DNA from: Cladocopium goreaui
Taxonomy: Eukaryota > Sar > Dinophyceae > Suessiales > Symbiodiniaceae
Assembly (NCBI GenBank): GCA_947184155.2
Contig: CAMXCT020001030.1
Coordinates: forward strand, 53,501 to 117,500
Length of the DNA stretch: 64,000 bases
Direction of reading: 5' to 3'
Shown piece after piece: positions 9,603 through 58,100 of the stretch (positions are counted from its first letter, which is position 1; every line of letters begins with the position of its first letter). The position numbers and the translations under genes are program-made. The notes under the pieces are model-generated. The model saw only the letters and a program-made list of their open reading frames with translations. It made no database searches and had not been told where the DNA came from.

Positions 9603-12600
9603 GTTAGCGTGGTGGGGCAGACAGCCTTCATGGTTGCTGCAGAGCGGGCCCTAGAAAGCGAACGCGAGGAGCTGAAGACGCCTTCAGAATCTTTAGAGTG
9701 AAAACACGGAAAGAGAAGTCAGAAAAACGGGGAAACATTCTAAAAAGATGTAGAAATAACAAGAAATAACAAGAGTCTTAATATTGGTAGATGGCAAGTG
9801 GCAGCAAAAAGTTTAACAAGTGAAGATGGCGATGCAAACATACAAATCAAGTGCTGGTAGAGCTGGTAGGGGCGTGAAACGGAGAATTCTTTTGCAATTT
9901 TTGCAGGATGCTTTGTTCGTTGATCCCTACGCCAAAGCTCTTTCTGGAGATGGGCTAGGAATGTCTGATCGCTTGGGAGAAGCTGGAAGCCAGTTTGGTT
10001 TCAAAAATTGGCCTGAGTTTCACAAGGTGCTCATCTCAGGTGGTTTGGCTGCCCGTTACAAGGCACATTGGCACACATATCAGATCATATCAGCAAGTAG
10101 GTCATATCAGAGTCATATCCGGTGTCCGTTGTTGGAGCCTTCAGAATTTCTAGATGTTCGCAAGTGCTTGCCATGTTTGGGCCACTTTGGACAACTTTGG
10201 ACAACTTTCACCTTGATCACTCAGGTGTGGACAGTGGTTCGCACCAAGTTCATCGATGATATCTTGAGCGAAGTTGCCGTGCCACAGATGGTGAATCTGG
10301 GCGCAGGAGTTGATACTCGGCCCTTTCGACTGACCGCCTACGAGCGCTTCAAGGCTTCCTATGAGGTGGACACTGCCGAAGTGTGTGCAGCTTAATTGCT
10401 CAACTGGCATACAACTAGCATATCTAGCTGGGGGCGGGAGTTGGGGCACTCTGTGTGTCAGCTCTCCATATGCATGTTACTGATTGTTACTGTACACAGT
10501 ACAGTTATACAGTATAATGATGTACAATATATTTAGAACTGTCTCATTGGAACTGGATGTCTTCCATTTCAGAACTGAATGTCTTCCAATCTTGTGTCAG
10601 TGAGTGGCATCTGATGATCTACTACCTATCACCGCTCATCTTCTATCACTCGCGTGGTGCAACCATATCACACAGCTCGGCTCTTTCATATTCAGTTTGT
10701 TCCTGGTGATTCACGTTGCTATCAATCTTTTCTTAGTTATCCAAGTTATGCATCATCAAGTCTGTTTGATATTGTTTGATTGTTCGCCAATTTCATTTGC
10801 AGTGCGAAAGTGACAGCTCAACTCGAGACAGGTTCCCCAAACCTCCGACGAAAGACTGCGCAAACTCGAGAGCTTACATGAGCCAAAAACCGAATAGCGG
10901 AGGAAGTCTTTGCAAAAGGGTATCGGTATAACGGCATAAACCAGAGGGGTGGGCCAAAGCCAAAGCAGACAGGAAGGTCAACAGGGTTTTGAAACGGCTC
11001 ATGTGACTTCTAGAATTTGAATGAATTTGACAGATTCCTGCCAATGTACCTGTACACCCGCACGTACATCTACCTATCCTACCGTTCACATATCCATCAT
11101 GTTTACCCATCGTACAGCACCGTTCTCAGCTGTGCCCAGCCAAATCATCGTACCCTGTACTGTGGAATCCAACGGATGGCCCTTGAAACCACCAGTTCCC
11201 TCGGCCATTTCCTCGACCTCTGCTCTGAGCATCGAGCTATTTCTTCGCGCTGCAATGAGTTCAGAAGCCTCCACTTGCTCTGCCAAATTGCAATTTGACA
11301 CCTCCAGTTGCATTCTCAGAGCACGAGGGTTGCACCAAATCGGGCAACTTTGCGAACCACAGTTCCACTGTGGACGTTTCCCTGCCATTCCGAGATCTTT
11401 CTTGCGAATCAAGCTCTTTCCACCGTGGTTGACACATTTTCTTGCAAAATGACGCTCTAGCTACAGTCTGGCGTGCTTTTCCCCGGCCCTGTTTTTCCAA
11501 AAGTGCTCTCGAATTGCGGCGACGGATGACCCTACACATCACGTAGACATATGGTCAAAATTACATCTGATCATACTTCAGAAGAACGTCTAATAATAAG
11601 ATTTCCTTTTGTAAAATATGTCGGACTTCAACTTCAACATGGAAAGGCTTCTTCTGATACTTCATGACTTTCATGGTTGCTGAGTGGCGCTGAGGAACGC
11701 AGTTAAAAGTGCGTTCTTTTCTCATAATGCAGCCACGCCACTATGTCCTGTTGTGAACGTGTCGGCAGATTTTTGCACAGCAGGCTGGGTGCCGCATTCA
11801 TTATGTTCAAAGTTCATGAATTTTCTTACAGATTCCCAATAGGCCTAACCGGATAATTACTCGCAATTTGTAATCTATAAAGCTCTCCACATCTTCCATG
11901 GTCCTTGCTGTGCAGGAATGCTTACCGAAAAACTCTCAGAAGCAGGCTTCGAAGTTCAGGACCGGACGCAGAATGAAACAGAGCTTGCTTGACAGATGTT
12001 AATAATAATACTGTAATAATAATAATAAACATGATAATAATAATAATAACAATGATAATAATAAGAATATCGCCTTGTATCGCGTTATGGATCATCGTAA
12101 TGCAATGACGCAGTGCGTTTTGAATCTGGGCCCTGTCAGCGAGGCCCCATCTGCTTTCCTCATTGAGGGCGTGTTGGACTTTTTGGAAGACTCAGCAGGG
12201 TCCTTTCTTCATGAGGCAGTTGCAGTTGTCGCATGTTGCCACCCTTTGCAGACCCATTCGAGTACCTTGAGTAATGTGTAGGTCTCGCAGTTGGCAGCGC
12301 CTGGCTCAATCGCCATCATAAACTATGCCATTGGGCCCCAGAGGCACGGCTTGGCAACTTGAGATTCCCTGGTATCCTTGAGCGGTTCGCTTCATTTGCG
12401 CATCTGAATCCAAAATGAACATTTGGCACATTGATACCGTTTCAGGCCTGGCACTTTCACTGCAGAAACTCTTCAAAAGCTTCTGGAGGGTTTTGGGTGG
12501 AAAGATTTTCAGATTGATGTACCATGGCCTTTTCGCAATGCCAAGAATCTCAATGTCCGGCGCATGAGTTTTTCGGTTTCACATCAAGACATGTGCTGCA

Positions 12601-12735: not shown

Positions 12736-13253
12736 CATGGCTAGGTGGATCCGTGAGAATCTTCCCGGCTTAGCGGAAGCCTGGGCGGCTCCATACACCT
12801 CTGTTTTTTTCGTAGAATGATGGCGGAAGGCAAATCTGCTAGCTGCCAACTATGCCTGTACAGAAATGAGAAAGGCAACTGTGTACAGTTTTGCGCTCAC
12901 AGCTTCGGAGCGTAAACATGCGTAAACACTTTTGCATGTTGGAATTGAAGCATCTTGCATATGCAGCTTGTGTGTGTTGAGTTGAGACCAGGCTGCATGG
13001 AACTCATTGGACCGATGGTATGGCTGGAGCAAGAATGAGCAGGTGCAGATGGTGCAGATGGTGCAGGGCTGGCAGGGCTGGAAACTGGAAGGGCAAACAG
13101 ATTCTGAGGACAACATTTGCAGCTCTTCATCCCATACGTCCCGACAGGTTGATGGCTGGGAAAAAGGGTCAGTAGTTCTGAGCTCAGGTACTCTTCCAAG
13201 AGAAGAAAAACTCAGAAAAATGTCCAACTCCTCTGTCCGTTCAACATGCACGT
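12736..13253. other. Spacer downstream of the methyltransferase gene
   Basis: No gene is recognised. The stretch includes a 9-bp direct repeat GGTGCAGAT/GGTGCAGAT near 13042-13060 followed by GGCAGGGCT twice. No AATAAA-type polyadenylation signal is evident, which is usual for dinoflagellates. Confidence 0.4.
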
Positions 13254-15035
13254 GGCTCACCGCAGTGCTGGCTCAGCAACGTCCCTGCTGCTCCCGTGGA
13301 GCAGCTCGTGTGGTCCGGAGCAGTGGCCTCATACCTTTGAACATTTTGACAACTAGAATCGGTTTTGAGGGATTGAAACTCCAAATGCAGGCAGCGTCAG
13401 GAATTTGTAAAGGCGAACATCACGATAGATTGACACAGATCGTATGAGCACAGCTTGAGTCAGTCTCAGAGCTTAGGCCATGGCTGAGGAGAGGCGTGAC
13501 TTCAGCTTCCAACAGATGCTGACAAGGCAGCCGCAGACCAAGTGACAAGTGAGACCATCATTGGGTCAAATCCTGGTAGTTTCAGCATGTTTCAGCCACT
13601 CGACAACGTCTTAAATGGCCAACACGGCGACCTAAGGTCACCTGGTGGATTGCTTGCAAACTTCCGGGCTCGCCGCATGGGTCTTCCGTGGCTTGGCAGC
13701 GGCATTGTTGGGAAGTCACCCGCAACATATGACAGAACGAATCAAGAGACAAATGTCGTACTATGTCGTACTACCCGGAGTCTTTCAGCACACTGTTGAC
13801 ATATGTTGACATCCTTTGACGCTGACGTGCCCAGGGTGCCTTTTGCGGCCCCATCGCCAGTTCGCGCTGATGTTGGCTCTTTGTCTGCAGATGGCCTGGT
13901 GCCAGATACGTATCAAATCAGAAAAGCTCTCCGCCTGAAAGCCGGCATCGGCTTGAATTCTAGGCTATCCTTGGAGGATGGATTGGGGTGGCCATAACCC
14001 TGCCACTCCAATTGCAGAGATGTGCCATGGCCTGTATAAACTGAATTCATTCAGATTCATTTTAGACTTAGATATCTTAGATTCATTCAGGTTTCTTTGT
14101 CTTTTTTCTTCAGAATTCCAGCTGCGGAGATTTCGATCTGGCTAGTGCCTGTGAGGAACATCAATTACCACAACACTGCCTGGGGCATTATGATTTTTGT
14201 TGCTTGACCTCAAGCAGTGGCTGAAGTCTTGCCAAGTGCGATTGAGTTTTGAAACATTTTGCCATATTCTGTGGTTTGATCGTGCGACATTTCTGGATTG
14301 TTTCTGGATTGTTTCAACCAGGTATGCACTTCGGTCTTCTACATGATGACCAAGCGTTGAGTGACAGAGTGTTCTCTTCCAAAGGGATGACCGACGATAG
14401 ATTCTGAATGATTCTGATAGATGAAAGCTGAGTCCGCGTGAACTGTGCTAGCAAGACTCACATCAAATGGTAGTTCTGGTAGTTAAGTTATTTCAAGTAC
14501 TTTACTTTCATGTACTTGGAAGTTGTGAAGTCTAGGATCTATGACACCAGCTCATAAAACGTGATTTCCTGAATGTACTCAGCAGAAGCGACACCAGCAA
14601 CACCAGCAGCATGAGGATAAATATCGACAAAGCGGTAAGACTGCTTGGAATGAATTTCGTTTGATGTCTTGGTTCTGCTTTTGATTCAGAGCAAAGCTTT
14701 CGCATGAGATCGTCGTAGCGACAGCGAGAAAGCAAAAAGAATGCAAGAGCCAGAGCACATCATGAGTATATTGAGTATATAAATTGTAATACATCATGCT
14801 AGACTGCAGGAGGGGACGGATGGGACCTATAGGAAGGAATGGGCAGATCTTGATTGACAAGCTGTAACGGAGATGGGTAAATTTGACTTTATGCCCGAGG
14901 ACAGAAGAGTTCCAGTGGTATCCTCAGCATTCTGCAGCCATGACTCTTCGCGAGCTGAGAGATGAACACCTGCTATAGCTACTACGCATTGCCATGTTGG
15001 ACTGTTTGACCTTGCACATCCGCTTCCAAATGCAT
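13254..15035 (+). repeat. 1.75-kb tandem repeat, copy A
   Basis: This is the first copy of a long direct repeat beginning GGCTCACCGCAGTGCTGG. The offset to copy B is 1,782 bp, and copies differ by scattered substitutions and small indels. Exon-like readings conserved in the copies include SNVPAAPVEQLVWSGAVASY, MAEERRDFSFQQMLTRQ, FRARRMGLPWLGSGIVGK, VPFAAPSPVRADVGSLSADG and NSSCGDFDLASACEEHQLPQ on the + strand. A minus-strand reading at 14735-14532 holds a hydrophobic SLTALSIFILMLLVLLVSLL segment. The unit may carry a gene fragment, but I recognise no domain. Confidence 0.9.
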
Positions 15036-16779
15036 GGCTCACCGCAGTGCTGGCTCAGCAACGTCCCTGCTGCTCCCGTGGAGCTGCTCGTGTGGTCCGG
15101 AGCAGTGGCCTCATACCTTTGAACATTTTGACAACTAGAATCGGTTTTGAGGGATTGAAACTCCAAATGCAGGCAGCGTCAGGAATTTGTAAAGGCGAAC
15201 ATCACGATAGATTGACACAGATCGTATGAGCACAGCTTGAGTCAGTCTCAGAGCTTAGGCCATGGCTGAGGAGAGGTGTGACTTCAGCTTCCAACAGATG
15301 CTGACAAGGCAGCCGCAGACCAAGTGACAAGTGAGACCGTCATTGGGTCAAATCCTGGTAGTTTCAGCCACTCGACAGCGTCTTAAATGGCCAACACGGC
15401 GACCTAAGGTCACCTGGTGGATTGCTTGCAAACTTCCGGGCTCGCCGCATGGGTCTTCCGTGGCTTGGCAGCGGCATTGTTGGGAAGTCACCCGCAACAT
15501 ATGACAGAAGAAATCAAGAGACAAATGTCGTACTATGTCGTACTACCAGGAGTCTTTCAGCACACTGTTGACATATGTTGTCATCCTTTGACGCTGACGT
15601 GCCCAGGGTGCCTTTTGCGGCCCCATCGCCAGTTCGCGCTGATGTTGGCTCTTTGTCTGCAGATGGCCTGGTGCCAGATACATATCAAAAAAAAAAGCTC
15701 TCCGCCGAGGCTATCCTTGGAGGATGGATTGGGGTGGCCATGACCCTGCCACTCCAATTGCAGAGATGTGCCATGGCCTGTATAAACTGAATTCATTCGG
15801 ATTCATTTTAGACTTAGATATCTTAGATTCATTCAGGTTTCTTTGTCTTTTTTCTTCAGAATTCCAGCTGCGGAGATTTCGATCTGGCTAGTGCCTGTGA
15901 GGAACATCAATTACCACAACACTGCCTGGGGCATTATGATTTTTGTTGCTTGACCTCAAGCAGTGGCTGAAGTCTTGCCAAGTGCGATTGAGTTTTGCAA
16001 CATTTTGCATATTCTGTGGTTTGATCGTGCGACATTTCTGGATTGTTTCTGGATTGTTTCAACCAGGTATGCACTTCGGTCTTCTACATGATGACCAAGC
16101 GTTGAGTGACAGAGTGTTCTCTTCCAAAGGGATGACGACGATAGATTCTGAATGATTCTGATAGATGAAAGCTGAGTCCGCGTGAACTGTGCTAGCAAGA
16201 CTCACATCAAATGGTAGTTCTGGTAGTTAAGTTATTTCAAGTACTTTACTTTCATGTACTTGGAAGTTGTGAAGTCTAGGATCTATGACACCAGCTCATA
16301 AAACGTGATTTCCTGAATGTACTCAGCAGAAGCGACACCAGCAACACCAGCAGCATGAGGAAAAATATCGACAAAGCGGTAAGACTGCTTGGAATGATTT
16401 TCGTTTGATGTCTTGGTTCTGCTTTTGATTCAGAGCAAAGCTTTCGCATGAGATCGTCGTAGCGACAGCGAGAAAGCAAAAAGAATGCAAGAGCCAGAGC
16501 ACATCATGAGTATATTGAGTATATAAATTGTAATGCATCATGCTAGACTGCAGGAGGGGACGGATGGGACCTATAGGAAGGAATGGGCAGATCTTGATTG
16601 ACAAGCTGTAACGGAGATGGGTAAATTTGACTTTATGCCCGAGGACAGAAGAGTTCCAGTGGTATCCTCAGCATTCTGCAGCCATGACTCTTCGCGAGCT
16701 GAGAGATGAACACCTGCTATAGCTACTACGCATTGCCATGTTGGACTGTTTGACCTTGCACATCCGCTTCCAAATGCAT
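15036..16779 (+). repeat. 1.75-kb tandem repeat, copy B
   Basis: Second, complete copy, 1,744 bp to the start of copy C. Compared with copies A and C it lacks a 10-bp stretch before GCCACTCGACA near 15369 (shared with C) and has a deletion around 15690-15706, where poly-A replaces AAAGCCGGCATCGGCTTG-type sequence. Otherwise nearly identical, so the duplication is recent or homogenised. Confidence 0.92.
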
Positions 16780-22164: not shown

Positions 22165-24900
22165 ATGTCCCCCAGCCCCGAGGAGAAGAGCTATGCTGTT
22201 GGAATAGACCTTGGAACTACCTACAGCTGCGTTGGAGTCTACAAAGATGGAGAAGTTCAAATTATCGCCAACGACCAAGGCAATCGAACAACCCTATCGT
22301 ATGTTGCTTGGACTGAGCAGGAGAGACTGCTCGGGGATGCAGCGAAAAATCAGGTAGCAAGCAATCCAACCAACACAGTCTTCGATGCTAAGAGGCTCAT
22401 AGGGCGACGCTTTGATGACCCCATCGTTCAGGCGGACTTGAAGCTCTGGCCGTTCAAGGTGGTTTCGGACGGCAGCAAAGATGATAAACCTCTCATTGAA
22501 GTCTTCTACCAGGGGGTGGAGAAACGGTTTCATCCAGAGGAGATCTCCTCTATGATCCTTACGAAAATGAAACAGACCGGTGAAGCTTATCTTGGCCATC
22601 GAGTGCGGGAAGCTGTGATCACGGTGCCCGCTTACTTCAACGATGCCCAGCGGCAAGCAACAAAAGATGCTGGAGAGATTGCCGGTCTTCGAGTTCTGCG
22701 GATTGTGAATGAACCAACTGCTGCAGCCATTGCTTATGGCCTTGACAAGTCTGACAAGTCAGGTGTTGCAGAGAAGGAGACACACATTTTGGTGTTTGAC
22801 ATGGGAGGTGGAACTTTTGATGTCTCGGTTCTGGCGATTCAAGATTCAGTCTTTGAGGTGAAAGCCACTGCAGGCGATCCGCACCTGGGAGGTGAAGATT
22901 TCGACAATCGGATCCTCAGCCATTGCATCGCGGACTTTCGCAGGAAGCACCAGTCAGACCCAACCCGGAACCAGCGGGCTTTGCGACGCTTGAGAACTCA
23001 GTGCGAACGAGCCAAGCGATTGCTATCGACACAAACTTCTGTTACCATTGAAGTGGATTCCTTACATGAAGGAAATGACTTCAGCATTCGTTTGTCAAGG
23101 GCCAAATTTGAAGAGCTTTGCATTGACTATTTCAAGAAAGCCATGGAACCAGTTGAGCAATGCCTGAAGGACAGCAATTTGCCGCAGAAGGCGATCACTG
23201 ACATTGTGATGGTAGGAGGTTCAACTCGAATTCCAAAGGTCCAAGAACTCATCAAAGCCTTCTTCAATGGAAAGGAGCTGTGCAAATCGATCAATCCAGA
23301 TGAAGCTGTAGCATATGGAGCAGCTGTGCAAGCGGCCATCGTTTCCGGCCAAGGAAGTGAGGATGTGCAGAACATGTTGCTGCTGGAGACTGGGCTCAAG
23401 CCTGGAAGACAAATCCTGGCATTCTTTTCCATTCTTATCCGTTCTTATCCATTCTTATCCATTCTTATCACCATATTTGATTCATTGAGCCCATGAAATC
23501 CCATGAAATCCCATGGTTCCCATTGCATGCAGGGAGAGTGAGTAGGTCCCAGGTTTCGGTCTGTCTTGTTCACTAGATGCTTGCACAGCCATTGATAGAA
23601 AGTGATGCAGCAAGCAACATGAGGTGATACGACGTGTTTTTTTTTTTTTAATGTCAACATTTGTTCGACTGGGCGTGGGATGCTGTGACTTGTTCTCACA
23701 TTTCCATACATTTCCATGGAATAAATAAGTTGATATAAGTTCGATACGAACGCAGGATGTTGCTCCATTGTCGCTTGGGATCGAGACAGCTGGTGGCATG
23801 ATGCAAGTCCTGATTGAGCGAAACTCCACAGTGCCGACCAGCAAGAGCCAAGATTTCACCACTTTTGAGGACTATCAGGATCATGTGGACATCTCAGTCT
23901 ATGAAGGCGAGCGTGCCATGGTCAAGGACAACAACTTCTTGGGCAAATTTACCTTGAAAGACATCCCCAAGTCCCTTCGAGGAGTCCCGAAAATTCAAGT
24001 CACCTTTACAATCGACACCAATGGCATTCTGCAAGTTCGAGCTGAAGACGCCAAATCTCAAAAGAGAAGTGAGATTCAGATTGCCAACGAGAAGGGCCGT
24101 TTGACTCAAAACGATATTCAGAAGATGCTGCAAGAAGCCGAGAAATACAAAGGCGAAGACGAAATCAGCAAAGGTGATATGCTCGCCAAAGAGGAGCTCA
24201 AGGTGTACATGCAAAGATTTGAGAAGGGCATCCAGGAACATCTCACACTGGTTTGATGGGAATAGTTGGCATAGTGCAAGGTTTGAGAGAATTAACCAGT
24301 CAATTTTGCAAAGATACTTGTAGCTTGAGACACCAGGATGGCGCGGGGCTTGTTCATTGTGTCGGTATTCCACAGTTTCATAAACATGCCGTAACATGAT
24401 CCCAATGATCCCAATATATCCCAATGATCCCAATGTTCATGGCGGTGAGGACTTGGATGACACGAAGCTGCAGAGAGAAGATCGTGAGCGGCTCGAAGGC
24501 AAGCTTGCAGATGCCTACAAGTGGCTGGAGAACGATGGCCTCAAGGCGAGGTAAGAGCCAGACAATGCCGGACAATGTTACTGTGTAAGTGTATTTCTGT
24601 GTTTTTCTTTGTCTCAAGTGACTCAAGGATACCCAGAGCTAACCTGGCTGGCCCTTGTGACTTCCAATACCTACGGCTCAGGCTGGAAAGCCCGAATTTG
24701 ACGGGAAGCAGAAAGAGCTCCAGGCAGTCATGAACACCGACCCTTGGGCGTTCCACATTTTGAGTTTCTATGAGTTTCTAACGATTGTGAATTCTGAGGC
24801 GTTCCTGTCGAGGGGATTCCTTTGCTACGAGATTTAGTTAATTTGAATTGATCAGGAGGCAGAAAAGAAGGCCGAAAATTCAGGTGATGCCATGATCTAG
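22165..24900 (+). CDS. HSP70: Heat shock protein 70, cytosolic type, five exons
   Basis: An ATP-dependent chaperone of the Hsp70 family. Exon 1 (22165-23385, 407 codons) carries the nucleotide-binding domain: [13 protein letters not shown] near residue 13, [11 protein letters not shown] near 211 and GGSTRIPK near 350. Exon 2 (23756-24235) starts [14 protein letters not shown], the classic linker, and holds the substrate-binding sheet ([16 protein letters not shown]). Exon 3 (24450-24545) and exon 4 (24682 to about 24738) hold the lid helices, with [11 protein letters not shown] last exon (24856-24900, [18 protein letters not shown]) is tentative. Introns: 23386-23755 GA-AG, 24236-24449 GA-AG, 24546-24681 GC-AG, and a fourth from 24739 (GA) or 24724 (GC) to 24855. 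Total about 632 residues, normal for the family, but the C-terminus lacks the EEVD found in most cytosolic members. An in-frame GTG precedes the ATG; I chose the ATG, which puts the conserved motif at the usual distance. Confidence 0.95.
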
Positions 24901-25742: not shown

Positions 25743-27116
25743 TATTTATCTACACTGTTGATATCTATTGATACTACTGAGTGAGACAGAGCTGCAGACT
25801 GGTGCAGACATAGAATGGCCAATGAGGTATGCAGCTAAGCCAACTAAACTGAGATCCCTTGCAAGCCTGGCAGTACATAGCGTTCGCTATCCCTGGAGGT
25901 TGTGGCAGACGAGCATCTTTGCAGTTGGATGTCAATTCAAAGGCCAGTGCCATTTACATGGGCCGTCCAGCTTAGCAAAGCTGTGAACAGCTTTGAAGGT
26001 CCAATCCAGCTGTGTTGGCAGAGGACTTTCAGATTCTCATGGCATCTTGGCTGGTACTGGCAATCCAAGTGTTGCGATGCAGAATCATGTGTACATCTCG
26101 TTCGATGTCTAGAGTTTTGTTGTACATATTTGCCTTGGGGCTTTGCATCCTTGTTTACTCAAGCTCGTTGCCTCAGGATCGTGCACTGTGGAAGGACTGT
26201 GGCTGAAGTGTGCCAAAGCGCTTGACTTCCTTGTTGAAACCATAAGCCTTTAAAGTACAGGACATTGACGGAACTTGTGCAGAGGTGCCATCCATAGCAT
26301 TTTGAAATTCAATGAGTTCATGATAGTTCATGCAACGATGTGCAAACAAAGTCAAACAAAGTCAAACATACTGTACTCTGCGAAGCTATGGCTTTGCCGG
26401 TGTGCTATGGTGTGCTCAGGCCAGGGAGAAGGCTGCTTGGATGGTTGCAAGCGGATGTCAATGCGAAAGACTCAGACATACTCAGACCATCTCAGACCGC
26501 ATCCGGGTGTAATTTTTGTGGGGCCAACATGGCCAACTTGTGCAGGCGAACATCGCTACAATCATGGCATCCTGGAGCCTGTGGAGATTCCAGATTGGAT
26601 GCCATTCTGGCCCGTGTGACTGCTGTATGTACCTTTAGAATCCTTTAGAATCCTTTACACATCGTTACACAATTTGGTGTCAAAACTCAGTGCTACGTCG
26701 TATGTTGATGTGATATATTGTGACATTGGATGCTTTGCATCAAGTTATAATCTGCAGCATTTTTAGCCAAAAGGCTGCGCCCAACAGGCGCCAGGTAGAG
26801 CGATGGACCCACAGGTTATCCTCACAACGCTGAGTAACCTAGATGTTTCTTGGTGTATGTAGGCATGGCATCGCGTTTCTTCGGGAATCGATCAGCTTGT
26901 TTGTTGAAAGCTGGTTTCCATTGTATATTTGTCCTCTCTTTTTTTGATCCTTTAACATTTGTTCTGTGCTGCGAGTTTCCTTTGCTCTTACTGCTGTTAG
27001 ATTCGTGATTCCTGTGCGGTAGCTGCCTGCTACTTGCATTGGACTGATAGGTTTGGTATGAACTGACCTCAGGAGCACCCTGAAAAATGGATATATGATA
27101 TATGTACATACATATG

Positions 27117-27704: not shown

Positions 27705-30700
27705 GACCTTCGCACCTAGCAAGAGCTTCACAGAGAAGCGCTGCATAGGAACAGTTAAGCTGAACCCTGTCAGCGGCTGAGTCAGCTGAATATGTCGCAA
27801 GTGTGCTGTGAAGAGCGGCTCTGACTTGAAGATAGGGGCTGTGAGTGTTGCGATGGTACGGCTCTGTCCTTGCCCTAGGTGCATATAGTGGCCTTAGTGT
27901 AGTCCTGTCATATTTCTATGACATTGTTGGATATAGTTGGTATTAGTTGGTGTATGTTGGTATATGTTACAATGTTGGTTTTTCATGTTGTCATGATATT
28001 TGCATGGCATGGCATTGTGATTCTTGAGTCCTCCAAGGCCATGGGGGTCAGTTTCATCAGCTGCCCTGATCTGAGCGCTGCAACTTGACTGTGATGCGCC
28101 GATGTCGCGGTTGAATGCGGTTGAGGGATGCCATAGTATTCATAGTATTGACAATTTGTATCAGTATCCAGATGTATCCAGTATGTAAGTATTGGATAGT
28201 ATTGGTTTATTAAATTTTATTAAGACATATTAAGACATATAAAGACTGGATTTGCACGTAGCGATGGAATGAAGTCAATGGAGCTTGGCAGTAGCACATC
28301 GCGACTTAATGCGACTCTGCAGTTTCACAAGCGCCTGGCCTCGGCAGCCCAGGTTTTTGACTGCGAGGTCCAGGTCAGGCCACAGCAAGTAGCTGGTTTT
28401 GTAGATGGCCTTGTGCTGAGTCTTTGATGCATTTTGATGCGCCTTAAATGATCACAGTATCACAGGTCTAGTCCGGTGCCTGCAGGAGGTAAACTTTTTG
28501 CTGACATTTCAACTCTTCGCCCAGGTCAGGAGGTAAACTTTGCTGTGACCTTGAACGAAGAGAACAAGCCACAGGCGTTCGACCTGATAGACAACAAAAC
28601 GGGCTTGAATGGCGTCGCAAGCATGGGAGGATGTGGGGGTGGTTGTGGCATGCCCAGCATGGGAGATCCCATGTCTTGTGGGATGGGAGGTTGTGGTATG
28701 GGCGGTTGTGGTTGTGGGTGTGGCTGTGGGTATGGAGGTGGGTGCGGGAGTGGCTGCGGCGGCTGCTGTGGCAGTTGTGGTGGATGTGGCTGCGGCTGCG
28801 GTGGCTGCGGTGGCTGCGGCGGCAATTGCAGCGGCTGCGGCGGCAATTGCAGCGGCTGCGGATGCAATTGCGCTGGCTGCGGCTGTGGCTGTGGCTGTGG
28901 AGGCTGCGGAGGCTGTGGAAGCTGTGGAGGCTGTGGAGGCTGTGGAGGCTGTGGAGGCTGTGGAGGCTGTGGAGGCTGTGGAGGCTGCGGTTGCGGATGT
29001 AGCGGCTGTGGCTGTGATGGCAATGTGGGAGGCCCTGACATGGGAATGAGCCGTGGCAGCAGCTGTTTACTCTTTGTCATTTGTCAGTCAGTCCAGTTTT
29101 CTGTTGTCCGTGATGCTGTGCAGTGCCTTTTCGTGGGATCCAAGGATGGGGCGACCCATGGGAATGATGCCAGGGCCAGGGCCGCCATCTGGACATGGCA
29201 TGAAGGGAGGTGGAAAACACAACGAAGAGAGTCTGGGAGAGTTCTTTGGCGTGGTCAAGAGCTACAACCCAGACAAAGGCTGGGTCAGACCTATCCCCAG
29301 AACCACTTTCCTTCAAGAGAAAAAACGCCAAAATGCAGTGCTGTCACTGCTGCATGTTTGCAGAGCCTTCTCACATGTGTGAAGTCTGTAAAGTCTATAG
29401 TGCCAGTTGTGCCATGTTGTCGCAGGCTTTGGCTTCATAGCCTGCGATGCGCTCAAAGGTCAGCATGGCGATGTCTACCTGAATAGCAGGCCAAGTGGTG
29501 CCAGATCTACGGGTTCAAAGGAGGTTACAGGTTTACAATGGTTTACAATGGTTTACATATGGGACGCCATGGGACGCCATATGTTTACATCGGCAAACGG
29601 ATTTCCTTCGCCAGGAACATTGGAGACTTCAAAGTTGGACAAGAGGTCAAGTTTCAGGCCTTCCTGCACAACGGCAGACTGCAAGGCACCGGACATGGAG
29701 CGGCACAGTATGGGCGCAATTGTGTGATCTTAATGCGTACTTTTATAGACCCTTACCTTGCCACATCTTCACCAAGTTGTTGCAAGGGCTGAAGCAAACT
29801 TATGCCTACATTGAGTGGTATTGAGTGGCTTTGAATGCTGAAACATGCCTGAATTCATCCTCAATTCATAGAACACCAAGTATCTCCTTCCCCCTTGGTA
29901 CCTGAGGCAGGGACCTCCGAGAAACTCGGCTTCGAAACTTCAACTCAGTGACAGGATGATGAACGCTCTCTCATGCCATGTCATTTTGAAATATGAGCCG
30001 GTTACAAACAGAGTTGAACTCGGGCTGCAGTTTGACAGCTAATAACCGCTAATAGCTGCCACAAAATCTAGCAGCCCTCGACATTCCTCGAACATCCTCG
30101 AACATATCCAGTGAGAGAATGTGAGAGAACATACACTGAGGATGCCACAGGCCAAGTGGGCCGGCAATCTGGCGCGGCTGGTGCCGAGGAGCAGGTGACC
30201 TTCAGCCGATGGCCTTGCCATGACATTTTCGGAAATCTTAGGCCACGTAGGCCACGTAGGCCACGTGTACATACGTTCACATTGTCTGCTTGCACCTGTT
30301 GGACAGGAACTTGGAGTCTTTGCCGGGAAGATCAAGAACTTTAACCAGGACACCAGCTTGAATTGAACGTGTTGCACGAATTCATCTTGTACTCATGCAT
30401 GACATTTGCTCAATTGGCTTTCTCGACTGAGCTTCACACGATTTCACGAGCAGCATGTGACGTCATGTGACCCCCGTAGCTGCTGTAGTTTGGAAGGAGA
30501 AAGGTTTTGGCTTTATCGTGTGCGATGCGCTCGCCACGCAGGGCTTCCAGGGTGATGCGCCTCAGCCGCCTTGGGAAGGTTTCCTGCAGTCATATGCAGT
30601 CATCCTTAGAACACATGTATAAAATTGTGGAAATAAAATACGTATAATTGCGTGTATATATATATGTGTGTGTGTGTGCGTGTGTGTAAATAAACATATT

Positions 30701-33910: not shown

Positions 33911-33990
33911 TATAGTGACTCTATGTGACTCTATGTGACTCTATGTGACTCTATGTGACTCTATGTGACTCTATGTGACTCTATGTGACT
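33911..33990. repeat. 10-bp minisatellite (CTATGTGACT) x 8
   Basis: Eight head-to-tail copies of a 10-mer; the first is slightly different (TATAGTGACT). It is the longest example of the 10-bp periodic duplications seen all over the window. Confidence 0.97.
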
Positions 33991-35280
33991 CTAGTGGCCC
34001 ATCCATGTGACAGTTTAATGATGTTTTATGGGCATGTGCGATACAGCGCAGGCACCGTCAGTGAAGTGACGCTCTCCCATGGGGATACTTGTGCTATCGA
34101 AGGTCCTGATCTCGGAACGTTGAATCCACGTTCGCGGCATCATTCAGTTTTTTTGTGCCTTTGTTCAGCAGAAAAGGCCGGTTTCAGAAACACTTCGTGC
34201 ACCAAAGCGTGGGGCGACAGGCGAGTGTGATGCAAGTGCGGCAAGGTTTGATTCTTGGAGCTGCTTTCTCTCCAACTGCAGCCAGGTTGAGAACGACGGC
34301 TCTTCAAGCAATGAAGGGTATCTTCATGTCACATTCAGGCGGACTTACTCGTGGGTCAGTCATTAGTCAGACCATGTCAGACTCATGTCAGACCTAATCA
34401 TCGTAAGCATCCCAATCTCTTAATCCTTCTTGAGTTGTCTTGTCATTGTGATTCCAGTCAGGTGGATTGTGAAGCATTCAAGGCCAAATCGGCTGTTCGA
34501 TGTTCAATCTCAACCTATCATATTCCATCATATTCCATCATATTCCTATCCTTGCACGATCTTGCACGTCCTTGCAATTCCTTGCCACTTTCTTGTCTTA
34601 AACTGGAGACTCTTCTTTTTTGTGTCTGCAATCATCATCAAACATCCGAAGAATGTTAGGAACTGCCCTCTGCACGAGCATGGAGCCAGCGAGGCGGGAG
34701 CGAGGACAACTTCACTGGAAGATCTGGAAGTGTAACCTCTTAAACCCTCGAGCCCCACGGCATCACACAGAAGAACACCGGCAGATCATAGCAGATCTCA
34801 GCAAGCATGACGAGATATTCCGAGCATATCCGTTATAAAGTTATAATCAATTTGTTATAATGATTATATTTTCAATATGTACCGTATATAGGTCCGAAAA
34901 AAACATGAATAAACATTAACAAAAAACACACAAAATACAATTGCAATTGATAAATAAATCCATCAAAGAGTAAATAGTGTAACATAGTGTGTATAGTATA
35001 TGTATATTAATATATACCTGGACATCCAAAAGCTGCATTTTTTTTGGTCTGGACTGAGTGAACGACCAAAAATCGAACAATTGCTGATTTGGCCCTCTGT
35101 CAATCACATTTGGAATGACCAAAAATATAACGCAAAATGACGCAGAAAAGACGCGAAAGACCAACTTTTCGACACCAAAACTGTGTCATTGAATCCATCT
35201 CTTTTATCACAAAAGTGATTTTTAGGCCCGCGCCCGAAAATCCACAAAGATCGGAAATTATGCATCTCAAGGACTGTCCA

Positions 35281-35378: not shown

Positions 35379-36149
35379 CCCACCTAGAAAGGCAGGAGCA
35401 ACTTGACCGAACGGGCGGACGACAGCACCCAGGCCGAGGAGCCCAGTGAAGACGATGTCTCAAGCGCTTCAGCTGCGTCAGATGACGGTGCGGCAGCTCC
35501 ATGGACGGTCCGATGATGTCCGGTGGTCCATTGGAATTAAGTGCTACACAGAGGGGTTCCAAAGAAAAAGCTACACATAGTGTGTCACATAGTCACGTTT
35601 CCATGTCGTTTCACACTGTGTTAGCTTTTTCCATTGACGGGCTGTAGTCGTTTGGACAGGTGAGGTAGAGCCTGATGCTGAGTTGCTGCACAGACATCAG
35701 CTGTGCAACATGTACGAAGGTTTGGAATTCAGACGGCATTGTGCACGCCAAAGGTGACAAAATGCAGGAAAGTTCTAGCAGGCACTTTTCCTGACAGCAC
35801 ATTGGAGAAATTTGGAGAAATGGGAGATGCTGTTGGAGTGCAATCAAAGTGCAATCAGAATGCCTGGCTCCAACCCGCTTCTCCTTCTCCTATCATCACT
35901 ATCATCTGATTTCCAGCCAGGCAACTCCATCCAGATGAGACCGAAGAAGTGAGCTCGGAGTCGTTTCAAGACACGTGAGCTATGGGCACTATGGGGCCTA
36001 TGGGCACTATGGGGCCTATGGGGCCGGGGCTGCCTTCTGGCAAGTTCCACGGCAGGAACTCGCACTCAGAGAAGTCTCAGATCACTGTCAAATTTGTCAA
36101 GCCAGTGCTCCATTCTGAATCAGGTCTAGTAACTCAACTTGTGGAATTT

Positions 36150-36195
36150 GTTGAGATCTGTTGAGATCTGTTGAGATCTGTTGAGATCTGTTGAG
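36150..36195. repeat. 10-bp minisatellite (TTGAGATCTG) x 4.5
   Basis: Four perfect copies plus TTGAG. AGATCT inside each copy is palindromic. Confidence 0.95.
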
Positions 36196-44940: not shown

Positions 44941-44954
44941 AAGGAGAAATTGAT

Positions 44955-45775: not shown

Positions 45776-46150
45776 AAAAATTGATGAAATGGAAGGATAA
45801 ATTGATAGCGTAAAATATGGGACGGTTGAGTAAAACTGGAGGAAAAACTGTGAAAAAAACACTGGGGAGACTGGAATGGAGGGGAAAATGATGTCGAGTA
45901 AAACTATGGAAAAGCAATGGAAAAAATGAAAAAAATGTGGCTTCGATGTGAGACCATTAGCGATGGAAAAGCAATGGAAAAATTGAGGGACTATGATGAA
46001 GAAGTGGAGAAAAACAATGGAAAAAACATTGGAAAAATTGCGGCTCTGATGTGGGACCAAAATGATGCCAAGTAAAATAAGAGTAAAATGACGGAAATTG
46101 ATGGGATGGAAACACAATGGAAAAATTGAGGCTCCGATGTGGGACCACTA
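45776..46150. repeat. Degenerate GGAAAAACAATGG repeats
   Basis: A decayed extension of the R1 tail, ending in TTGAGGCTCCGATGTGGGAC, a tag that recurs inside the neighbouring minisatellite at 47486 and in R1 copy 2 at 45519. Confidence 0.85.
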
Positions 46151-49530: not shown

Positions 49531-49660
49531 AGGGGTAGATGGGATGCTGGCTTTCGTTGCCCCCTTCTCAGGTTTCATTATTTGTATATGACGTATATGA
49601 CTCTTTGAAATACTCAAGGTTCTCCTGATTCACAGTTGATCAGGGCACTGCTTCCCTGGT

Positions 49661-51890
49661 GTGTTGCAAGGCACCTGGGCACAGCAGAGCTTCTCTGGTG
49701 TATGGCACTTGATCGATGTGCCCTCAGTGGTTTGTCCAGGCCGTCAAGGCAGGCGGTCACCGTGACCAGACCCAGACCAAGCAAGGCAACATGAACAGGT
49801 TTAAGCATGGCATGATTGTTGGACATCAGGTGTCGTTTAAATACCGTTTAAACCTGTTTAATTTCTGTGAGATCACGAACAGGCTATGCCACAATCACCA
49901 TTGCAAAGCCGACGACTGCTGAGTATGAGCCACATATTTTGACGGTCTTCCGTACTGCAAAGAATCCGGTCGAACTGAGCTTCCTGGCCAAAGACAGCAA
50001 TGACATCGTGGCGGATCAAAGGACGCCAGTGACATTGCAAGGACATGCACGGAGGCTTCAGATAAACCAGACAAGCCAGCTCCAGCTGGCGCCGGGAAAT
50101 GGTACCCAAAAGGCCCCAGCTAATGCTGCTAATGGCACGTTTTGGAGCCACTGTACTGGCAAAGACTGTCCGGAAGGAAGACTCAGAAGACTCTATTCAA
50201 TGCGACGGCGCATGTCCAGTTCCATCAGGAGGCGAAACGGTGGTATCAAACCGATCAACATCAATCCGATGTCCTGGTTCTCCCCTCGAAGAAGGCGAGC
50301 TCTTCCCGGTGCTGCCGGTGGTGCGGCTGTGGCCACAGGTGCTGGTCTGGTCGGTGCCCGACGAAGAGGGACAGCACCAGTTGCGCCAGCACCTGGCACA
50401 GTGATGCCTGCGAATCCCTATGATACAACTGGCACAGGAGCTTCTTATTCCTCGGTGCGCAGGAGGATAAGCACTATGGGGACAACCAAAAGCTTTCACC
50501 GGAGGCGCTCATATCAAGGAGGATATGGAGGTTCCTACTCAAATCCCTATAGCTCATACAGTGCTCCATACGGCTATCCCAGCTCTAATTGGGCATATCA
50601 GAGTTTTGGAGGCCATATGCCCACGGCGACACCCTATGGATACACCGGAGCCAATGCATATTCAAGCAGCAGCGGCCTGCCCATTGCATTGGCAGCTGGT
50701 GCTGGGTTGCTGGTCGGTTCTGCCATGGGACACCACTCCGGACACTATGGACACTATTGGCATGGTTACAGCCAGGATGACATGTACAAGATGCAATGCG
50801 CATCTGGACCTGTGATGTCTAAATTGAATAATATTTCTACATGTTTCCATCCTTTTTAGCTTGCTGATTCTCTTGCACTTAATTTTTTTATATTACTACC
50901 AATGAAAACTTTCACGTGGCTGGGGCTAAGCATGTCGAAGCATCAACGACAAAACTGCGTTCAGGAGGTTGGACTGGAGGATGCCAATCTTGTGTTTCGA
51001 GTTACGGAGCTTCGTCTTGCAATGTCCTGTTGTCCCCACAGCTCGACGCAGCGCGCGACGATTTGATGTCAACGGGCTTCATTCCTTCGCAAATTTCATG
51101 GCCATTGGTGGTGAATGTGACTCATGTGGCAGGTGATGATTTTAGACCGTCAGCCATTTGCCCACCTCAAGACCCAGATGCGAAAAGCGCGCCTCGACTG
51201 AATAGCCCTCCAACCGCCTAAAACATCGGAGATGTTCCAAACATTATGAAATTTATGGAACATTGTCATATCAAATTGTCATCATTTTGAAACTTGTTCG
51301 GCCCCCGGGTGTCGTTTCACAGGCGTGGACGCCGCCTCCGATGAAGGAACTCTTCATTTCGCTCTCTGCCCTGCCAAGCCCCCCGCAGCCTGGAATGCTG
51401 GGCAGCGGTCCCGGCTACGGTTATGGGAACGGCATGACCAACCAGGGAGGATCACCTGCCACTTGGATCCACTTCAATCCACTTGGACCATTGGACACCG
51501 CCTGGATACCATGCCGTTCTTGTTATTTCTTGTTGTCACGGTATGTCATATGTCATATGTATTTTTTTGTTTGTTTTTGATTTTGTTTTCCTTGTTGATA
51601 ATACGTTTCTTCGCGATGATGTTGTTTTTGATAATGATGAGGATGGGGATGAGGGATGAGGGATGAGAAGCCGTGACGTCCTTGCTAAATCATTCGCACG
51701 CAGGAGATGAACAGTATTGAACGATGAAATCCAAATTTGAAGATGCATAGTTGATGTGTGTGAGCCTAGCGGCCTAACGGCCTAACGGTTCTTTGAGAGG
51801 TGATCTCCAACTTGGTACTGCTTTGTTCCTGCCTTGGTTGCTGCTATCTTGTGGAACGCTGCCGGAAGATGTTCGACGGCCCCTCTTCAG
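49661..51890 (+). CDS. Tandem membrane-protein family, paralogue 2
   Basis: Exon 1 ends at 49739 and reads AQQSFSGVWHLIDVPSVVCP; its start is not fixed. Intron 49740-49882 is GC-AG. Exon 2 (49883-50806) reads YATITIAKPTTAEYEPHILT, then an Arg/Ser-rich stretch (RRRMSSSIRRRNGG), HMPTATPYGYTGANAYSSSS and a Gly/Ala hydrophobic segment ALAAGAGLLVGSAMG. Intron 50807-50964 is GA-AG. Exon 3 (50965-51170) holds GWTGGCQSCVSSYGASSCN and DAARDDLMSTGFIPSQISWP. Intron 51171-51322 is GA-AG. Exon 4 from 51323 reads AWTPPPMKELFISLSAL with a Gly/Tyr-rich end. A transmembrane exon from 51800 reads VISNLVLLCSCLGCCYLVER, aligned with the poly-Cys helix of the others. The remaining 3' exons are uncertain (candidates near 52021-52180 and 54329-54430), because element 2 sits there. 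Confidence 0.7.
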
Positions 51891-52180: not shown

Positions 52181-52259
52181 GGGAGGGCCATTTATTTAGT
52201 TTTTTTTTTTTTTAGTTTAGGGATTTTTTTTTGGATTTCTTCCTGCTTACTCTATTGCC

Positions 52260-52590
52260 TCCTGCAGTGCTTCTCTGCTTCTTTGCTTCTATTCCTTTTT
52301 TTGTTTTTCTTGCTTTTCTTTGCTTTTTTGCTTTTTTGCTTCCCTTGCTTTTCTTTGCTTTTCTTTGCTTTTTTGCTTTTTTGCTTTTCTCGCTTTTCTG
52401 CTTTTCTTTGCTTTTTTGCTTTTCTTGCTTTTCTTGCTTTTCTTTGCTTTTTTGCTTTTTTGCTTTCCTTGCTTTTCTTTGCTTTTTTGCTTTTGTCGCT
52501 TTTCTGCTTTTCTTTGCTTTTTTGCTTCTCTTGCTTTTCTTTGCTTTTTTGCTTTTTTGCTTGTCTTTGCTTTTTTGCTTTTCCATGAGG
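52260..52590. repeat. Pyrimidine minisatellite (TTTGCTTTTT-type)
   Basis: Degenerate 8-12-bp units near the left end of element 2, corresponding in position and composition to 18545-18950. Confidence 0.95.
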
Positions 52591-52599
52591 TGTGGAGCA

Positions 52600-53657
<1,058 letters not shown>

Positions 53658-53997
53658 AACAAACAACTGTTGGAATGTCAGCCTTCAGCTCCAAAATCCT
53701 GCAAGTACTGTGAGGAATGTAGCTGTAAAGTGTTGCACATACGGTGGAAATGCAGATTCCAGCTCAAAAATGCTGCAAAGAGCATGGAAAATGGACAGAA
53801 CATGCTGCAAACTGTTGCAAATACCGTGGAAAATACAATGGAAAATGAGAGGTTCGAACTCAAAACCGTTGCACATACCGTGGAAATGGCAGTTTCCAGC
53901 TCCAAAATGCTGCAAATAGCATGGAAAATGGTGAGAACCGGAAATCCAAAAAAAATCCCCAAACTAAAAAAAAAAATCCACAAACAATTTCCTACCC

Positions 53998-55150: not shown

Positions 55151-58100
55151 CTTGTCGCAAACTGGCCTGGCTGGCCCTGGCTTCTCTGGAGTGTGGCACT
55201 ACGTTAACGTGCCAGCAATTCTTTGCCAGGGTGGGGCTGGACACTTGGATCATCGGACATCAAACATCATCGCACATATATGATATATCGAGCTAGGAAC
55301 ATCGCAACCTTTTCGGCCAGTGTAGAAAGGTGAGGCAGGTGAATCTGTTTGGCAAACTCCCCTTTTGCAATCCTCGGTTTTGACCTGTTATTGACTTATG
55401 ATATACTTATGATATACAATATATATATATATACATATATCTGGATTTCAGCGAGACTGTTTGCCACTCAGGATTTGCTGACATAGCTATTCAAAAGCCT
55501 CCCAGTGGAGACTATGAGCCACACGTTTTTACAGTCTTTTGCACCAGCAACGGTGCAATGACGCTCAGTTTCGTTGCTCGCGATGCTTCAGGGAGGACTA
55601 TTACGGACCAGTCATCTGGCCTCAATTTGCGACCTGTCACCCCAGGTACGAATTACGGGAGGCGTTTGGAAAACAACAGCCTGCCACTCGCTGAACAGTT
55701 TGAAAAGCCTGCAGAGCCTGGAAGCAGATTTTTATCGTCAGTCTCAGCCTCAGATCCAAGACGGCTCTCAAGCCGCAGGCGCTCGTTCTCATCATCGTCG
55801 CGCAGACGAACATACACAGACTCACGGCGCCGCACTATGTCTTCGCCTCGACGTCGTGTTTTGACATCTCCACGTCGGCGCACCGTGCTGGACACGAGAA
55901 GGCGCACCTCAATCGATGATTCACGAAGGAGAGCTGCCGTTCTTCCCTCCCCACGAAGAAGAACATATAGCAGCGATGGCCGTCGCAGAAGTTTCAGTAG
56001 CTATAGTAATCCGTCCCGGCCCAACATGGGACAATACGGTTATGCAAATCAACACTATGCATATCAAAACTATGGTGGGCAGATGCCCATGACCACGCCG
56101 TATGGATATTCAGGTGCCAACGCTTATCAGGGAAGCAGTGGCAACGGAATGAAGATTGCCATTGCTGGTGGAGCTGGTTTGCTGGCAGGCATTGCTGCAA
56201 ACAAACTGATGCATCATTGGGGCGGTTACAGCCAAGAGCAGCTGATGAATGCACCCTGCTCTAGAGGCTGCATGCTGGGGCATGAGCACTGATATGGCTA
56301 CGACTTGCACCTCTCCCCCACTCTCATCCTCTTCTTGGGGCAGTCATGGATTGAATTGCTCCAAGATTGCCTTTGTACGTCTCAATTCATAGTCATAATT
56401 CATAATTTAAACAATTTAAACATTAATATTTGAATGTCATTATTTGCTCAGTTCTAAAGCGTATACAGTACACCCTGGGTGTTGCTTCACCAATTGCGTT
56501 TTTGCGTTCTATGACCCATTCAAGGATTTAGGAGGACTGCACAGGATACAGTACATTTGCATTATCACACATATGCCCACGTATCAGCACGTGCCTTATC
56601 TATCCTTATCTTCAGTTTGATCCTAGTGGATCAGCGGATCAATGTTGTGGCATCTTGTGGCAGGCAGCTGGCAGGGCACTTGCGGCACCTGTATGAATCA
56701 GTACGGCGCGAACAATTGCAACGCGATGCTGGCTCCAAAATTTAATGCAGCCCGTGACGACCTCATGAGCACGGGATTCACCCCGGCCCAAGTCCAATGG
56801 CCACTGCAGGTACGTGTAACTCATGTGGCAGGCCCTGAGTTCAATCCGATGCTGATTTGCACCCCACCTGCTCCAGGTATGGCACCTAGGCTGGTGATGA
56901 GTTCTGTAGATCTCTGTGTATTTTGAATTTTCTTCACTGTGTAGGTTGATACATGTTGTTGATACTCCATTTTTTTCCGTTAAATCATGTTACTTTATCT
57001 AAATGGCTGGTTGAATTATTTGTTTGAAGGGTGCCGGGGCTTGGTGACATTTTCTGGCCAACTGCTTTGAGGCACACCCTCCAGTGCCACAAGTCTTTCT
57101 CACTTTGACTGCGCTGCAGTCATATTCAAATTCTGGAGGCAGTCCATATGGTGGCTACTCTCAATATGGCGGCTACAGCCCTGGATACGAGCAACAAACT
57201 TCCCGAGGAGGCATAATCGTGGCTCAGCATTCCCCTAGTCAGCAAATCCATTGATGTTCCATTGCATTCCATTTCTAATTCTCCCGTTCCTTCGCTATCT
57301 TCGCTTCATTGGATTTTGTGGCATTCTATGGCATTCTGATGTATTGATATGTACTGCACAACTGAGGCGAGTGTGGCCTCGAGCCTTCTTTGTTGCTGCT
57401 GTTGCTGCGGTCTTGTGGCTTTCTTCTGCGTGCGCAAAGGGAAGTCCAGCGTTGGTGATTCATCTTCTGAACCTTTTCCAAGATATTTTTAATAGTTTTA
57501 GTGGACCTTGGTCAAATACCCAGAGGCTGTGTGGGGATCTTGTTACTGAAAACCGAACACATTTTTTATATTTCAATATATTTCAATATACCCAATGCAT
57601 TCAATTCAGCACAGAGCACCTGCGGCGTCCCGGCACAAGTTGAAGCCTGAGGATGATGAAGGGACAGAGCTGTCGCACCATGCGCATCATGCGCACAACC
57701 CATACTGGGACACTGTCCCTCGTCATGATTCTAGTCATTCTAGTCTTGTTCTTGGCTTCACATTCTTGGCTTCTTCCGGTTGAGTAGCCTCATGTCACAA
57801 ATGTCATGACCATGTCATAGGTCCATCGAGACTGGGCACTGGTGGTGTCCATGTCACCAAGGCGCCTCATGCGCCTCCTGGGCCCTATGGCTCTGCGCCC
57901 GGCTTTATGGGGACTGCCGCGCCGAATGGCCAGTATTGGTCGCAGTACTGCCATGGCGAGCCAGAAATCAGCTCCGGAAATTTCATCGTGGGCCCATGGG
58001 GCGAGTGCTTAGCCTGGGCAGTGGTGTACGAGCACCAGAACCAGTGGGAAAATGATCCTGACTACAGGCACCTGGGCAATCCGGAGACACCCTGTTCATC

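Follow-up and report, generated by a model that had tools for sequence, protein, structure and literature searches.

Eight-base duplications spaced by a constant AT in noncoding DNA of Cladocopium goreaui, the probable footprints of departed DNA transposons

Noncoding DNA of Cladocopium goreaui carries a recurrent scar, N8-AT-N8, in which an arbitrary 8-mer occurs twice with a constant AT dinucleotide between the copies. In the window, a stretch of 64,000 nucleotides from contig CAMXCT020001030.1 (positions 53,501 to 117,500), we counted 84 exact loci (84 or 90, depending on the merging rule), and none in any of 20 shuffles. Each scar is probably the footprint of a departed cut-and-paste DNA transposon with an 8-bp target-site duplication.

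Exact tandem duplications exceeded the mean of 20 dinucleotide shuffles at period 7 (17 vs 3.35), 8 (26 vs 0.75), 9 (42 vs 0.15), 10 (54 vs 0.1), 11 (7 vs 0.05), 12 (2 vs 0) and 18 (8 vs 0). A preliminary description had given the period as 10–11 bp. The shuffle-controlled peak is real, but it spans periods 8–10 with the top at 10, and only 7 duplications fell at period 11. Periods 15, 30, 45 and 60 were also prominent at a 9-bp match threshold (75, 22, 81 and 84), a signal ascribed to a simple-repeat tract near 46–49.6 kb as its putative source. Low-complexity units were filtered from all counts. The period histogram and the run-length counts of the window were made without simple-repeat masking, while most of the later window counts excluded simple-repeat tracts (~12 of 64 kb) by masking, exceptions including the IMG/VR comparison, the 160-event motif set and the array tally.

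Among period-10 repeats, runs matching over exactly 8 bases stood out most from the shuffles (56 vs 0.5), with a smaller excess at 5–7 and 9–13 bp. Runs of 9, 10, 11, 12 and 13 bp numbered 26, 8, 10, 3 and 3, and 20 runs, multi-copy arrays counted, were at least 14 bp long. The spacer was AT in 44 of the 56 exact-8 repeats (P=1e-39 against an AT frequency of 7.2%). The unit combines an 8-mer with a constant AT and is no free 10-mer, which speaks against the helical turn earlier proposed for the period. The AT-spacer excess was kept at one, two and three mismatches (80 vs 35.8, 114 vs 68.0 and 197 vs 155.4) and was gone at four (359 vs 362.3); the scars are therefore of several ages.

All ten places named in the preliminary description hold short tandem duplications. 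Taken as 11 sites (29531–29580 being two), eight have the exact N8-AT-N8 form and one (9753) has a single mismatch, while two do not conform: 30242 (GCCACGTAGG) has period 9, and 10191 is without the AT. The main loci in the window are:

13579..13596, no strand: GTTTCAGC-AT-GTTTCAGC scar in the first of three tandem copies; the second and third have the 8-mer once and a 10-bp gap
22743..22760, forward strand: in-frame 9-bp duplication in an Hsp70 exon, a frame-neutral gain within coding DNA that may be linked to the scars
23421..23470, no strand: (TCTTATCC AT)n array with variants in an Hsp70 intron (23386–23755, GA...AG, borders set by eye)
24408..24425, no strand: ATCCCAAT-AT-ATCCCAAT within a compound 9/10-bp array
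24762..24779, no strand: GAGTTTCT-AT-GAGTTTCT
26470..26498, no strand: overlapping scar pair in registers 1 bp apart, ACTCAGAC-AT-ACTCAGAC then CTCAGACC-AT-CTCAGACC
28107..28246, no strand: cluster of several scars, two of which abut directly, AGTATTGG-AT-AGTATTGG and TTTATTAA-AT-TTTATTAA
29530..29578, no strand: (GGTTTACA AT)3 adjoining GGGACGCC-AT-GGGACGCC
30086..30103, no strand: CCTCGAAC-AT-CCTCGAAC
33915..33992, no strand: (GTGACTCT AT)8 array
36148..36195, no strand: (CTGTTGAG AT)n array, one mismatch in the first copy
57320..57337, no strand: GGCATTCT-AT-GGCATTCT
57568..57589, no strand: ATATTTCAAT duplication that can be read with an AT spacer in at least two frames
60501..60590, no strand: nested scar run with common sequence, AT-spaced CCTGACGT, GATTAATT and GATTTGGC units

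A 28-base form of the array at 36148 was found at three further places, and the flanks shown there look unrelated. Near 13579, one of three tandem copies is scarred and two have the 8-mer once, the alignment gap being 10 bp; this single case provides an unscarred site in a close paralogue, with the direction of change unrooted. A second contig across window positions 57552–64000 (allelic or redundant; 6 SNPs) had no scar difference.

The scars are not particular to the window. Elsewhere in the 1.17-Gb assembly, 17 arbitrarily taken stretches of 10 kb held 43 exact-8 repeats, 35 of them with AT as the spacer, and exact scars numbered 68 in 164.5 kb, about 0.4 per kb. Extrapolated from this 0.014% of the assembly, the total would be roughly half a million. 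With three more stretches that had been picked because of a hit (20 in all), AT was the spacer in 59 of 72. Footprints longer than the usual one were scarce in these 20, a point against an excision origin: spacers of 3–7 bp accounted for 5, 8, 7, 14 and 12 exact-8 repeats, against 72 for a 2-bp spacer. Period-10 repeats in 80 IMG/VR contigs (1.1 Mb), an imperfect control of compact viral-type sequence, reached 1.45 per 100 kb against 192 in the window, with AT spacers in 0 of 13. We found no report of such scars in dinoflagellates in the open-licence literature, as judged from titles and abstract openings.

Target sites rebuilt from 160 events showed a weak base preference that is palindromic about the centre of the 8-mer, a trait shared with transposase and integrase targets. 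The set comprised events with a single possible AT frame and a run of at most 13 bp, with one row per repeated flank. At the centre of N8 the palindromic correlation was 0.80, a value reached in 0 of 10,000 permutations (null 0.18 ± 0.17); the second-best of 13 offsets gave 0.50 at +6. The signal was present in the window and the sample separately (P=0.008 and 0.009; motif-set P values are uncorrected for 128 tests). Linheiro and Bergman (2012; PMC3276498) describe the target motifs of both TIR and LTR families as palindromes that reach past the duplication. Direct repeats of one fixed length, peaking at 8 bp, together with a palindromic target centred on the duplication, agree with transposon footprints. 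The symmetry of the base preference suggests that a symmetric protein complex, for instance a transposase or an integrase, was at work, rather than the structured template proposed before; the broader suggestion of one mechanism for unrelated sequences, involving DNA cutting and repair, is supported.

None of 108 period-10 loci lay inside inferred coding sequence, where 12 were expected. The coding set was 5,743 bp in 11 pieces, four with Pfam matches (Hsp70 twice, LCM, and ATPgrasp_ST below the curated cut-off) and seven being inferred frames, six of these without a Pfam match. Duplications of 9 bp were not depleted there (4 of 46 vs 5.1 expected), and the lack of scars in inferred exons is therefore, on small numbers, in keeping with selection against frameshifts of 10 bp. 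A codon-usage gene finder called 4.8 kb coding. The spliced-leader pattern had no match, and the spliced-leader core had one (0.92 expected).

The scars had been described as intronic, with a possible role in intron definition. Period-10 loci occurred at 1.0–4.5 per kb in all fifteen 4-kb window bins having unmasked sequence, also outside recognised genes, and scars in the arbitrary stretches were commoner where long frames were scarce. This widespread noncoding distribution shows that the scars are not confined to introns and, with exon absence fitting frameshift selection, does not support the proposed role.

From the form of the scars we infer a transposon with AT ends, cohesive-end joining and the following order of events. 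A transposase complex would insert the element at 8-bp staggered cuts, with a weak preference for a palindrome near ANATRGTTWWAACYATNT, and gap repair would duplicate the 8-mer. Excision would then keep two element-end bases at each flank. If the element ended in 5'-AT...AT-3', both flanks would end in one identical, self-complementary overhang of 2 nt and could be rejoined directly, which would explain the uniform single AT residue. Unequal exchange between the 8-bp copies, or repeated use of one site, might produce arrays of the (N8AT)n type.

No intact source element was found, nor a clear candidate excess up to 2.5 kb in ~241 kb. In the same ~241 kb, 8-bp-flanked A...T inserts showed no excess at spacers of 10–2559 bp. 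AT...AT inserts were slightly above expectation at 20–159 bp (15 in all vs 9.2), and numbered 19 vs 8.9 at 320–639 bp; the scan covered inserts of up to 2559 bp and 8-mers outside periodic DNA that occurred at most six times per stretch. Scans for TIRs with 8-bp repeats covered 264 kb and gave 46 matches, against 4 in 154 kb of shuffled sequence; many of the 46 fell in repeats, and visual inspection found no convincing one. No resident element whose ends account for the AT residue was seen in up to 264 kb. Among 145 window frames (of 298 with at least 70 aa) compared with Pfam, none matched a transposase at E 0.001. A window-specific protein had no relative among viral contigs.

Of the other candidate sources, MULE, IS1595 and a high-copy MITE were rejected. 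MULE transposase had no match in the genome in a six-frame, exon-by-exon search that was positive in 3 control genomes, and IS1595 had one match. For P-type transposase there was no match in the genome and none in any control. KDZ copies are disfavoured as the source: two copies of 16 matches had a 2-kb segment in common, with no inverted ends visible. The MITE, at window ~35016–35284 (TACCTGGACA...TGTCCAGGTA), had TA-type sites and, by eye, no common 8-bp duplication in 9 aligned copies.

An element-free origin would explain at once why no element is seen, why AT is constant and why the target is symmetric. A transposase- or integrase-like nuclease would make an 8-nt staggered break, followed by fill-in, addition of one untemplated A per 3' end and joining to N8-A-T-N8; we regard this as possible but unlikely. 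Such repair predicts frequent single A or T spacers. Exact-8 spacers at period 9 were A7 C6 T4 G1 in the window and C16 T7 G5 A4 in the other stretches, the latter without A/T bias, and we know of no enzyme combining an 8-nt break, fill-in and A-addition. A domesticated enzyme of this kind, recurrently making 8-nt staggered cuts at weakly palindromic sites while repair inserts AT, so that 10 bp are gained each time with no passenger element, is a similarly tentative proposition.

The resident hAT transposons (CAGGG...CTCTG), three 4.3-kb copies of which are 97.6–99.6% identical and have 8-bp duplications, are rather improbable as the source of the scars. Left-end sites of these elements had a mean scar-motif score of 0.43, vs -0.83 genomic (P=3e-5) and -0.26 for shifted flanks (P=0.007), with 22 of 33 ends used, a set that includes two pairs of duplicates and two ends whose start was misplaced. 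In addition, GTTTAAAC-AT-GTTTAAAC repeats inside the hAT element match the consensus scar target. However, the hAT site motif is somewhat different (T at n2 in 77% of 22), and the hAT termini are C...G, so AT is no leftover of their ends. Footprints of hAT elements are of the hairpin type and would depend on the duplicated bases, in disagreement with a constant AT next to varying n1 and n8. Hairpin P nucleotides were rejected as the AT source likewise, the spacer being constant although n1 and n8 vary. Over 2.5 kb compared, the three hAT copies had four gaps (1, 7, 1 and 1 bp) and no scar.

That the scars arose from ordinary short duplications through replication slippage or minisatellite growth is very improbable. 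Multi-copy arrays do exist: among 204 AT arrays in the window and 19 stretches, 180 had two copies, 19 three, one four and four seven or eight. Neither the fixed length of 8 bp nor the constant AT nor the palindromic target is expected from slippage, and the free unit length and sequence of minisatellites were not seen. Some overlapping events in the window sit in shifted registers, which argues against slippage alone. Slippage is thus disfavoured as the primary cause, and may have enlarged arrays. An intron-specific feature, either intron definition or introner insertion, is hardly credible: scars do sit in introns, as in Hsp70, but also in every unmasked window bin and in arbitrary stretches elsewhere, and introners make introns, whereas scars are 10-bp gains.

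Uniform and easy to recognise, each scar would log one past DNA-cutting event by an agent not visible in the genome. Taken together, the scars let past transposition in noncoding DNA be counted, supply a target motif for an enzyme hunt and, with 0–3 mismatches, provide a rough clock. If they are excision products, footprints far exceed intact elements in the sampled DNA. If they are not, an unknown duplication enzyme is active, and element-free writing would amount to a genome-wide activity expanding noncoding DNA.

No second nucleus is known in the source organism. Ciliate IES excision removes transposon-derived DNA genome-wide (PMC9942856); the scars differ in being of mixed age. Introners are transposon-derived insertions with dinoflagellates among their hosts (PMC9860276; Roy et al. 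2023 via PMC11453091), with 8-bp duplications in an Aureococcus family and 4-bp duplications in a Symbiodinium example (PMC9860276). They stay as introns delimited by a repeated element, whereas the scars are short duplications without any element, found also outside recognised genes. Excision of Tc1/mariner and piggyBac elements leaves a short uniform residue or none, through complementary or near-complementary overhangs. For piggyBac, excision is described as footprint-free (PMC7351741). These elements target TA or TTAA, in contrast to the 8 bp of nearly free sequence at the scars. Footprints of classical transposons with 8-bp target-site duplications are variable. The scars differ from excision footprints of the hAT and P superfamilies in their constant 2-bp AT, their great density and the lack of a matching resident element in the DNA searched, and resemble them in the arbitrary 8-mer present twice and in a palindromic target reaching past the duplication, as in the motifs given for hobo (GTNCGNAC) and the P-element (GTCCGGAC) (PMC3276498).

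Exact tandem duplications in the window peaked at periods 8–10, with 26, 42 and 54 at periods 8, 9 and 10, against 0.75, 0.15 and 0.1 in the control, dinucleotide shuffles of the window. At a 9-bp match threshold periods 15, 30, 45 and 60 were likewise prominent, and are ascribed to a simple-repeat tract near 46–49.6 kb. Sorted by match length, the period-10 duplications exceeded the shuffles most where the match was exactly 8 bp long (56 vs 0.5), and less at 5, 6 and 7 bp (74 vs 36.8, 36 vs 10.7 and 32 vs 2.7). Runs of 9–13 bp numbered 26, 8, 10, 3 and 3, the fall-off of 56:26:8 being about that expected from chance extension of an 8-bp repeat. The spacer between the 8-mer copies was AT in 44 of 56, with every other dinucleotide at three or fewer. 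Together with the excess at exactly 8 bp, this defines the unit as N8-AT-N8 (a “scar”), in which N8 is nearly free. Exact loci of this form numbered 84 in the window and 0 in each of 20 shuffles.

The preliminary description had reported 10-bp duplications in most introns, with a period of one helical turn. Duplications were present at all ten places it named. From its 11 sites, eight are exact N8-AT-N8 and one more has a single mismatch; the rest do not parse. The helical period misdescribes the unit, and so does the intronic character. The duplication signal is real and strong, occurring both in the window and in the majority of the arbitrary stretches sampled. The Hsp70 intron borders, placed by eye, were GA...AG, a type named for dinoflagellates in PMC11453091. 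One gene finder put 7/8 coding segments on one strand, and the full spliced-leader pattern had no match. The intron borders, this strand bias and the genome size make a dinoflagellate source probable. Two long tracts of degenerate repeats, both strongly strand-skewed, lie at 43160–50000 and 52200–53900, and a GA-rich low-complexity tract at 58873–59009 gave many dispersed, often tandem matches.

The window (C1030:53501–117500) belongs to an assembly of 1,165,616,438 bases. In 20 further 10-kb stretches the spacer was AT in 59 of 72 exact-8 period-10 repeats, and in 35 of 43 once three stretches picked for carrying an array were removed. The 17 arbitrary stretches held 68 AT scars per 164.5 kb (0 to 18 per stretch), their number falling as long-ORF coverage rose (Spearman −0.69, P = 0.002). 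IMG/VR contigs (1.1 Mb), an imperfect outside control because they are compact viral-type sequences, had 1.45 period-10 repeats per 100 kb vs 192 in the window, with AT spacers in 0 of 13. The 28-base form of (CTGTTGAGAT)n occurred at three further genomic places with apparently unrelated flanks; given how many arrays there are, a rough extrapolation predicts a few coincidences of this kind for each 8-mer. L083 (C1:20001–30000), from a 7.4-Mb contig, is ORF-rich (81%), with a GC of 53% and no AT scars. Judged by eye, it has frames similar to a DNA polymerase of phage type and to a DNA ligase; the contig could be contamination or an insertion of viral DNA.

The scars are most likely footprints of DNA transposition with an 8-bp target-site duplication and a uniform AT residue. 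An element-free reading, in which a nuclease would cut with an 8-nt stagger and repair would write N8-AT-N8, is less likely. No convincing candidate emerged, on inspection by eye, from TIR scans that required 8-bp repeats. In ~241 kb, searched up to an insert size of 2.5 kb, 8-bp-flanked inserts with A...T ends showed no excess; AT...AT inserts numbered 19 vs 8.9 expected at 320–639 bp, and slightly exceeded expectation at 20–159 bp. Transposase searches of the genome gave 0 matches for MULE, one for IS1595, 16 for KDZ, 11 for hAT domains and 0 for P, the last though with no working control. A KDZ-domain frame of 299 aa lay at nine places with near-identical score; the two copies fetched (L150, L151) share a 2-kb segment (99.5%) starting in an AT microsatellite, and no inverted ends were seen in them. 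The elements recognized were:

Contig C3846 (stretches L110/L114): hAT copy, 4.3 kb
Contig C402 (L112/L115): hAT copy, 4.3 kb
Contig C1645 (L113/L116): hAT copy, 4.3 kb
Window 35016–35284: member of a MITE-like family (TACCTGGACATCC...GGACTGTCCAGGTA), ~265 bp, in TA-rich sites

The three hAT copies are 97.6–99.6% identical and carry target duplications (ATTTTTAG, ATGCTTAT and GTTTCAGA), which shows that a known superfamily is represented here by recent transposons that duplicate 8 bp. As the source of the AT this element was rejected, its ends (CAGGG...CTCTG) not supplying it. Each copy has 32 GTTTAAAC motifs (0.07 expected), many in pairs spaced 10 and 13 bp, internally and near the ends. GTTTAAAC-AT-GTTTAAAC occurs several times per copy, matching the form and the consensus of the scar target. 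The match may be coincidental, or may reflect either a DNA-binding preference common to both or scars inside the element. The MITE-like family is high-copy (4,013 first-look candidates in the search that revealed it, 39 scored).

Scars were clustered, with 22 gaps <60 bp vs 6.4 at random, and 24/204 arrays had at least three copies. Arrays can grow by slippage or by unequal exchange between their 8-bp copies, but neither process makes overlaps in shifted register. Among the scars that overlap or abut are:

Window 26470–26498: overlapping scars, shifted register
Window 28188–28223: abutting scars

Inferred coding sequence (5,743 bp) contained 0 of 108 period-10 loci (12 expected, P = 8e-6) and 4 of 46 period-9 loci (5.1 expected; Fisher P = 0.007 between periods). 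Gaining 10 bp disrupts the reading frame and gaining 9 bp keeps it, thus the absence of scars from inferred exons fits selection. Duplications of 9 bp lie within reading frames at 22743–22760, 6786–6805, 50177–50193 and 50740–50757. An AT excess was still seen where the two 8-mers differed at 1, 2 or 3 bases, but not at 4, so the scars are of several ages. One scar could be compared among repeat copies:

Window 13236–17877: three tandem repeat copies, ~1.1–1.8 kb each, 96–98% identical

It is present in one copy, the other two having a single 8-mer at that place; the difference may be a gain of the scar or its loss. The copies differ by 15–23 substitutions per 1.1 kb, and were the only ones among the matches listed in an assembly search. 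The final 6.4 kb of the window is also covered by a second contig, allelic or redundant; 6 SNPs and a single AT-microsatellite step separate the two, and no scar differs between them.

The unscarred target site, rebuilt from 160 events, was enriched in A −5, A −3, T −2, G n1, T n3, A n6, C n8, A +2 and T +3, where n1–n8 are positions within the 8-mer (uncorrected P values 2e-8 to 3e-3). Centred on the 8-mer, the profile correlated at 0.80 with its own reverse complement, compared with 0.18 ± 0.17 for permuted columns (0/10,000 reaching 0.80) and at most 0.50 at 12 other offsets. The correlation was 0.57 in the window (P = 0.008) and 0.52 in the sample (P = 0.009) taken separately, and the window profile, set against the reverse-complemented sample profile, gave a correlation of 0.75. 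This palindromic preference is the main reason for calling the event transposase-like, since the TIR and LTR family motifs reported in PMC3276498 are likewise palindromes reaching past the duplication.
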